The notes beneath the pieces were generated by a model, which was not told the DNA's origin, did not search any database, and saw nothing but the letters and a program-made list of their open reading frames with translations. Shown one piece after another: positions 56,228-56,258 of a stretch of DNA of 64,000 nucleotides. The translations under genes and the position numbers were made by a program. The stretch comes from an uncultured Lachnospiraceae bacterium (GTDB lineage: Bacteria > Bacillota > Clostridia > Lachnospirales > Lachnospiraceae): positions 1 to 64,000 of the forward strand of contig CANQPM010000002.1 in NCBI GenBank assembly GCA_947625775.1. The letters are read 5' to 3'. How positions within the stretch are numbered: position 1 is the stretch's first letter; every line of letters starts with the position of its first letter.

Positions 56228-56258
56228 TTGACAAATCCATACGGGGGGGGGGTATAAT
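56228..56258 (+). promoter_or_regulatory. Consensus promoter with G10 tract in the spacer
   Basis: TTGACA aatccatac(G)10 TATAAT; spacer 19 bp. Confidence 0.8.

Follow-up and report, generated by a model that had tools for sequence, protein, structure and literature searches.

Phase variation by simple sequence repeats (SSRs) is known mostly from host-adapted Gram-negative pathogens. In Neisseria, the spacer of the porA and fetA promoters contains a homopolymeric run of G (or C) whose length sets promoter strength for a surface protein (PMC5320596, PMC7864442). In Treponema pallidum, a poly-G tract in the same position controls transcription of tp0126, an OmpW homologue, by its length, with an optimum at 17 bp (PMC7864442). 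In Campylobacter jejuni, each genome has about 29 poly-G/C tracts, most of which lie within surface-modification genes (PMC4965091). The instability of a G9 tract has been shown experimentally in Amuc_1413, a surface gene of the gut commensal Akkermansia (PMC13055324), and G-tract slippage with frameshift switching has been shown experimentally for a pilus of Bifidobacterium breve (PMC9187656). The current work concerns 64,000 nucleotides of an uncultured Lachnospiraceae bacterium (the window), in which a promoter at 56228-56258, ahead of a gene for a secreted LysM protein, contains ten consecutive Gs in its spacer. This promoter is quite probably a transcriptional phase-variation switch and one member of a set of such promoters, with related tracts in glycan genes switching by frameshift.

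The -35 box (TTGACA, 56228-56233) and the -10 box (TATAAT, 56253-56258) lie on the forward strand and are both exact consensus sequences. They enclose a 19-bp spacer (56234-56252) that reads AATCCATAC followed by G10. The G10 tract (56243-56252) sets the spacer at 19 bp and is presumed to be the variable element, as the number of Gs varies at homologous promoters and tracts. It is preceded by ATAC (56239-56242), the 5' half of a flanking signature common to the poly-G tracts of the genus, and the TAT of the -10 box doubles as the 3' half. An earlier note on this DNA had given the same boxes, tract, spacer and coordinates, all of which are correct as read directly from the sequence. The homopolymer lies entirely between two recognisable boxes, as in porA, fetA and tp0126, and the resemblance to Neisseria includes its place in the promoter of a surface protein gene. 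Unlike porA and fetA, however, this promoter belongs to Gram-positive Clostridia, has exact consensus boxes and is part of a paralogous promoter family within one genome; its tract abuts the -10 box, ATAC is conserved before it, and the spacers are mostly 19 bp. The tp0126 system differs in phylum and cargo, and its 17-bp spacer was not seen in this genus.

Repetition of the promoter within the genome and the genus is the first line of evidence. Family promoters were defined by an exact TTGACA and an exact TATAAT with the G-tract abutting the -10 box, and tract counts in the own genome (G000, 3.75 Mb) were obtained by pattern searches. Seven such promoters were found, with spacers of 19 bp in the window and on C11, C36 and C10, 20 bp in each of two copies on C4, and 21 bp on C7. 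Five of the seven lie ahead of genes from a single LysM family, among them a pseudogene; another stands before a related secreted protein, and the C10 promoter stands before an unrelated protein, which is conserved in three congeners. The pattern TTGACA-N4-12-G7-N0-6-TATAAT had 15 matches in 38 congeneric genomes and its reversed control had none; a chance origin of the build is therefore excluded at the level of the family. The congener genes behind such promoters include those of LysM and BspA-type leucine-rich-repeat (LRR) proteins. Two of the own-genome tracts, both in 20-bp spacers on C4, are interrupted: G7AGGG (L086:3726; C4:101211) and G6TG4 (L086:12386; C4:109892). One of them stands over a LysM pseudogene with an internal TAG, and these tracts are apparently locked switches. 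An eighth promoter, of the variant build TTGACA-ATA-G13-TAGTAT with a 16-bp spacer, was observed at L091:4412-4450 (C5:209420); the gene directly 3' of it reads like a radical-SAM enzyme.

Differences in tract length were found both at homologous promoters and at coding tracts of the lineage. In the congeners G003 and G005, homologous promoters have the sequence TTGACATAAAATACC-G9-TATAAT and its G10 counterpart, giving spacers of 18 and 19 bp, and the next 200 nt downstream are 91% identical. Near-identical duplicates on C7 and C4 of the own genome are unequal in tract length and purity, with G12 in one and the interrupted G6TG4 in the other. An MBOAT gene on C8 of the own genome has G9, and its reading ends VGGGKLQAYSQVFE (VGGGKLQ), whereas a database protein identical elsewhere ends VGGGQITGVFASI (VGGGQITG), which implies one extra G, that is, G10. 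The two halves of this gene match consecutive positions of the Pfam MBOAT model (80-252 and 258-324) in different frames; in a congener gene 97% identical, G11 joins the reading frame. The window itself contains only two tracts of G9 or more, starting at 14107 and 56243. The former is a G9 (14107-14115, forward strand, flanked by GATACA and TAGATA) in frame within the gene for a DUF6020 membrane protein (13386-15275). A database protein 98% identical to the latter starts with MLDTGGGVDNQ, a reading that needs G10 and removes the upstream frame; the database alleles of MBOAT and DUF6020 have lengths deduced from protein sequences, not from DNA. Birth of the DUF6020 tract by insertion is unsupported. 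Because most homologues carry an ungapped Gly-Gly there, as GG(T/S)DN, the tract appears to have arisen in place.

The earlier note had taken the loss of two Gs to give an optimal spacer of 17 bp; as the ON state this length is not supported. A spacer of 17 bp is the textbook optimum. Among the promoters of this build found in the own genome and 38 congeners, however, 17 bp is absent; 19 bp is commonest, followed by 20 and 21 bp, with single cases of 16 and 18 bp.

Poly-G tracts are numerous in this genome. Of the roughly 29 tracts of G9 or longer that were inspected, about 20 are intragenic, on the coding strand, in surface-glycan genes. The tract-bearing genes encode methyltransferases, the MBOAT acyltransferase, hexapeptide transferases, radical-SAM proteins, an epimerase, a cytidylyltransferase/kinase and DUF6020 membrane proteins. 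Across five species, 84 intragenic tracts have clear frames on both sides, of which 53 are in frame and 31 are out of frame. In six genomes, only 35 tracts of G8 were counted against about 170 of G9 or more, the expectation if long tracts are maintained. The tracts are more numerous than chance would give, cluster in surface genes and include both ON and OFF states, and from these counts the set looks like maintained contingency loci. The earlier note had described a single LysM switch. Its reading as a promoter switch stands, but not as an isolated one, since the system comprises dozens of tracts. In C. jejuni the phasome lacks what is found here, the coexistence of promoter and intragenic tracts sharing ATAC...TAT; the tracts reported in Akkermansia and B. 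breve are also intragenic, occur in one or two genes per genome and include no promoter-spacer tracts. No report of a poly-G phasome in Lachnospiraceae was found in the incomplete open literature searched. One surface-glycan region (C6:107779-133783; L082, L083) has about ten tracts of G9-G12 within genes, all on one strand, in-frame and out-of-frame tracts being mixed.

The signature ATAC-N(0-2)-G9/10-TAT is common to promoter and coding tracts and occurs in all three reading frames. In the own genome, TAT follows 3% of G3-G5 runs and 18 of 29 tracts of G9 or more, and the second base 3' of the latter is A in 97%. Matches to GGGGGGGGGTAT outnumber those to the reversed pattern by 156 to 6 across the genus, and by 49 to 14 in a class-wide sample minus the own genome. 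A collection scan for ATACNG9TAT, which selects for the motif, was not used as evidence of enrichment. At intragenic tracts alone, the three bases after the tract are T in 80%, A in 87% and T in 68%. An origin of the TAT flank in the -10 box alone was rejected, as the signature is present at the 84 intragenic tracts; a cause at the amino-acid level was also rejected, as the T occupies codon position 1 in 20 cases, position 2 in 19 and position 3 in 14.

The two halves of the signature keep their distance. TAC is located within a few bases 5' of the tract, and TA keeps a distance of 10 or 11 from it. All 23 tracts that directly follow TAC are G10 or longer, and those one base further are mostly G9. 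Total length has a variance of 0.42, compared with 1.09 when lengths are permuted (p ~5e-5); the G9 collection cut-off contributes to this spacing pattern, leaving the missing G9 in the first class unexplained. With promoters left out, TAC and TA co-occur with an odds ratio of 8.4 (p ~1e-5), an association also expected if true contingency tracts are mixed with chance G-runs. Around the tract, ATAC...GTAT forms a small 4-bp inverted repeat of nearly fixed spacing. It was the only repeat noticed, no search being aimed at invertible segments, and homologous promoters differ in the number of Gs, not in orientation. The signature may raise slippage, mark the birth of tracts or be read by a factor. 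A more specific proposal takes the tracts of this genus to be more than plain slippage sites: a signature of ATAC, then 10-11 nt with the G-run at their end, then TA(T/A) would be read by a replication or repair factor, or would adopt a special mispairing geometry, that creates or holds 9-12 Gs in promoters and coding sequences alike. We regard this as rather unlikely. Data from C. jejuni argue against an effect of flanks on slippage there (PMC4965091), and no report of such a flanking signature was found in the open literature searched, which was incomplete.

A phase-variable LysM promoter is the best reading of 56228-56258, as the earlier note had proposed, now joined by the promoter family, the congener promoters one G apart and, elsewhere in the lineage, tracts that differ in length between alleles; the 17-bp ON state and the lone switch are not supported. 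Replication slippage at the G10 tract would add or remove Gs. A change in their number would alter the spacing of the -35 and -10 boxes as well as their helical phase, and with these the strength of the sigma-A promoter that drives the LysM gene; cells of one population would make the LysM cell-wall protein at differing levels. Frameshift switching of the glycan-gene tracts would vary wall proteins and surface glycans together. Phase variation is well supported for the family; for the locus at 56228-56258 we infer it, together with slippage as the process and transcription that depends on tract length. Several observations weigh against this reading. An allele of another length at 56243-56252 was not found in the one search made, of viral contigs, which came back empty. 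Four of the seven own-genome promoters share the 19-bp spacer, possibly a fixed functional length. The own genome has MutS, and slippage is thus not favoured there by loss of mismatch repair; such loss was also rejected as the cause, with MutS domain I present in the own genome and in 18 of 18 well-assembled congeners. Finally, G-tract lengths in an assembly consensus can be wrong, and some G9/G10 differences may be technical (PMC9187656).

A rival reading treats the length differences as noise from sequencing or assembly, with tracts that are stable in nature. G-runs are hard for short reads (PMC9187656), and the genomes are largely metagenome assemblies. Noise would leave unexplained, however, the concentration of dozens of G9+ tracts in glycan and surface genes, the flanking signature, the scarcity of G8 and the orthologous tracts in several species, and we consider it very improbable. 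Another rival is a constitutive promoter with a fixed G-rich spacer, in which 19 bp with ten Gs would be the working length and the tract no switch. Tract and flanks are conserved across species at orthologous promoters (C36 and L192, C10 and L228, all G10), 19 bp is the commonest length in the genus with 17 bp absent, and 19 bp may act like a shorter spacer owing to the stiff and somewhat A-like form of poly-G DNA. Spacers of 16, 18, 20 and 21 bp also occur, however, and homologous promoters stand one G apart. Two own-genome tracts are interrupted, one over a pseudogene, as if locked after switching was lost, and a constitutive promoter is unlikely to keep a pure run of 9-12 Gs. A fixed spacer therefore appears unlikely.

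The tract may also be variable with its length acting through a DNA-binding regulator or the structure of G-run DNA, and not through the spacing seen by RNA polymerase. The tpr promoters of T. pallidum combine tract length with a regulator, a porA-like mechanism having been ruled out for tprL (PMC7864442), and the inverted repeat ATAC...GTAT with its nearly fixed spacing would suit such a factor. With exact consensus boxes and a tract wholly in the spacer, however, length must alter the geometry of the boxes, and the same flanks occur at intragenic tracts, where a promoter regulator would be senseless. This explanation seems quite unlikely.

The gene downstream (56482-57423, forward strand, 313 aa) was identified as an open reading frame starting 223 nt past the -10 box. 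Pfam places a LysM domain (PF01476, E 2.3e-8) at residues 32-80; by inspection of the translation, the N-terminus is signal-peptide-like and a Thr/Gln repeat linker is present. The LysM domain given in the earlier note is thus confirmed, and the protein, with its signal-peptide-like start and repeat linker, counts as a surface or envelope product. The N-terminal third is conserved in the family, and the C-terminal parts, including the variable C-terminal domain of this protein, have diverged; its AlphaFold model has a mean pLDDT (predicted local distance difference test) of 48. The leader (56259-56481) contains a foldable insert and a GAGG ribosome-binding site at about 56469-56472. It is about 125-170 nt longer than the leaders of the paralogues, which have about 60-105 nt. 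A long imperfect hairpin was observed in it at 56262-56440, without another full copy in the genome. The leader folds slightly better than shuffled sequences (z -1.6), and 56050-56520 has no Rfam match to a known leader RNA or riboswitch up to E 10. A terminator-like hairpin followed by TTTTG, at 57509-57549 on the forward strand, suggests that the LysM gene is transcribed alone. Directly 5' of the -35 box, the A-rich stretch 56152-56227 (forward strand) would, from established promoter knowledge, play an UP-element-like role. The divergent short-chain dehydrogenase (SDR) gene (55293-56063) has its own candidate promoter, TTGATT-17-TATAAT at 56117-56145 on the reverse strand, recognised by consensus match only; the G-tract promoter is therefore not needed for it. 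Given this candidate promoter and the hairpin 3' of the LysM gene, the latter is most likely the only gene that the G-tract promoter drives.

Similar tracts were also found outside the genus. An excess of TAT after the tract, forward against reversed, was 21 to 2 in Streptobacillus, 13 to 1 in a Treponema, 8 to 0 in an Akkermansia and 20 to 7 in Campylobacter aviculae, ratios somewhat inflated by the choice of these genomes for having a match. In C. aviculae, 16 of 34 tracts have TAT directly after them, compared with 7% of short G runs, but the ATAC half is absent. The excess in Streptobacillus is due to the location of nearly all its tracts in promoter spacers. Streptobacillus notomytis has about 21 promoters of the form TTGACA-N6-11-G9-11-TATAAT (L366, L372, L378, L423-L442), with spacers of 16-20 bp that peak at 18, which form a large candidate phase-variable set; no literature report of them was found. 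Unlike the present genome, it belongs to Fusobacteriota, almost all of its tracts are promoter tracts, and ATAC is mostly absent. A metagenome-assembled genome (MAG) of Bacilli, CANRBB (1.2 Mb), repeats a near-identical promoter-like TTGCAA-N-ATAC-G10-TATAAT (L252, L255, L276, L277, L290, L292, L301, L319) and has 33 G9-TAT places. In an Akkermansia MAG (L392:1499), an out-of-frame G10 with TATAC and TAT flanks lies in a polytopic membrane-protein gene resembling a UbiA-type prenyltransferase.

In gut Lachnospiraceae, SSR phase variation appears to serve as a main route to surface diversity, one genome combining promoter switches for mosaic LysM proteins with frameshift switches for glycan genes. 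A glycan gene that is frameshifted in an assembly of this kind should not be taken as dead. The flanking signature offers a clue to why certain G-runs become contingency tracts, and switching of this kind would affect how these commensals meet phage and host immunity.
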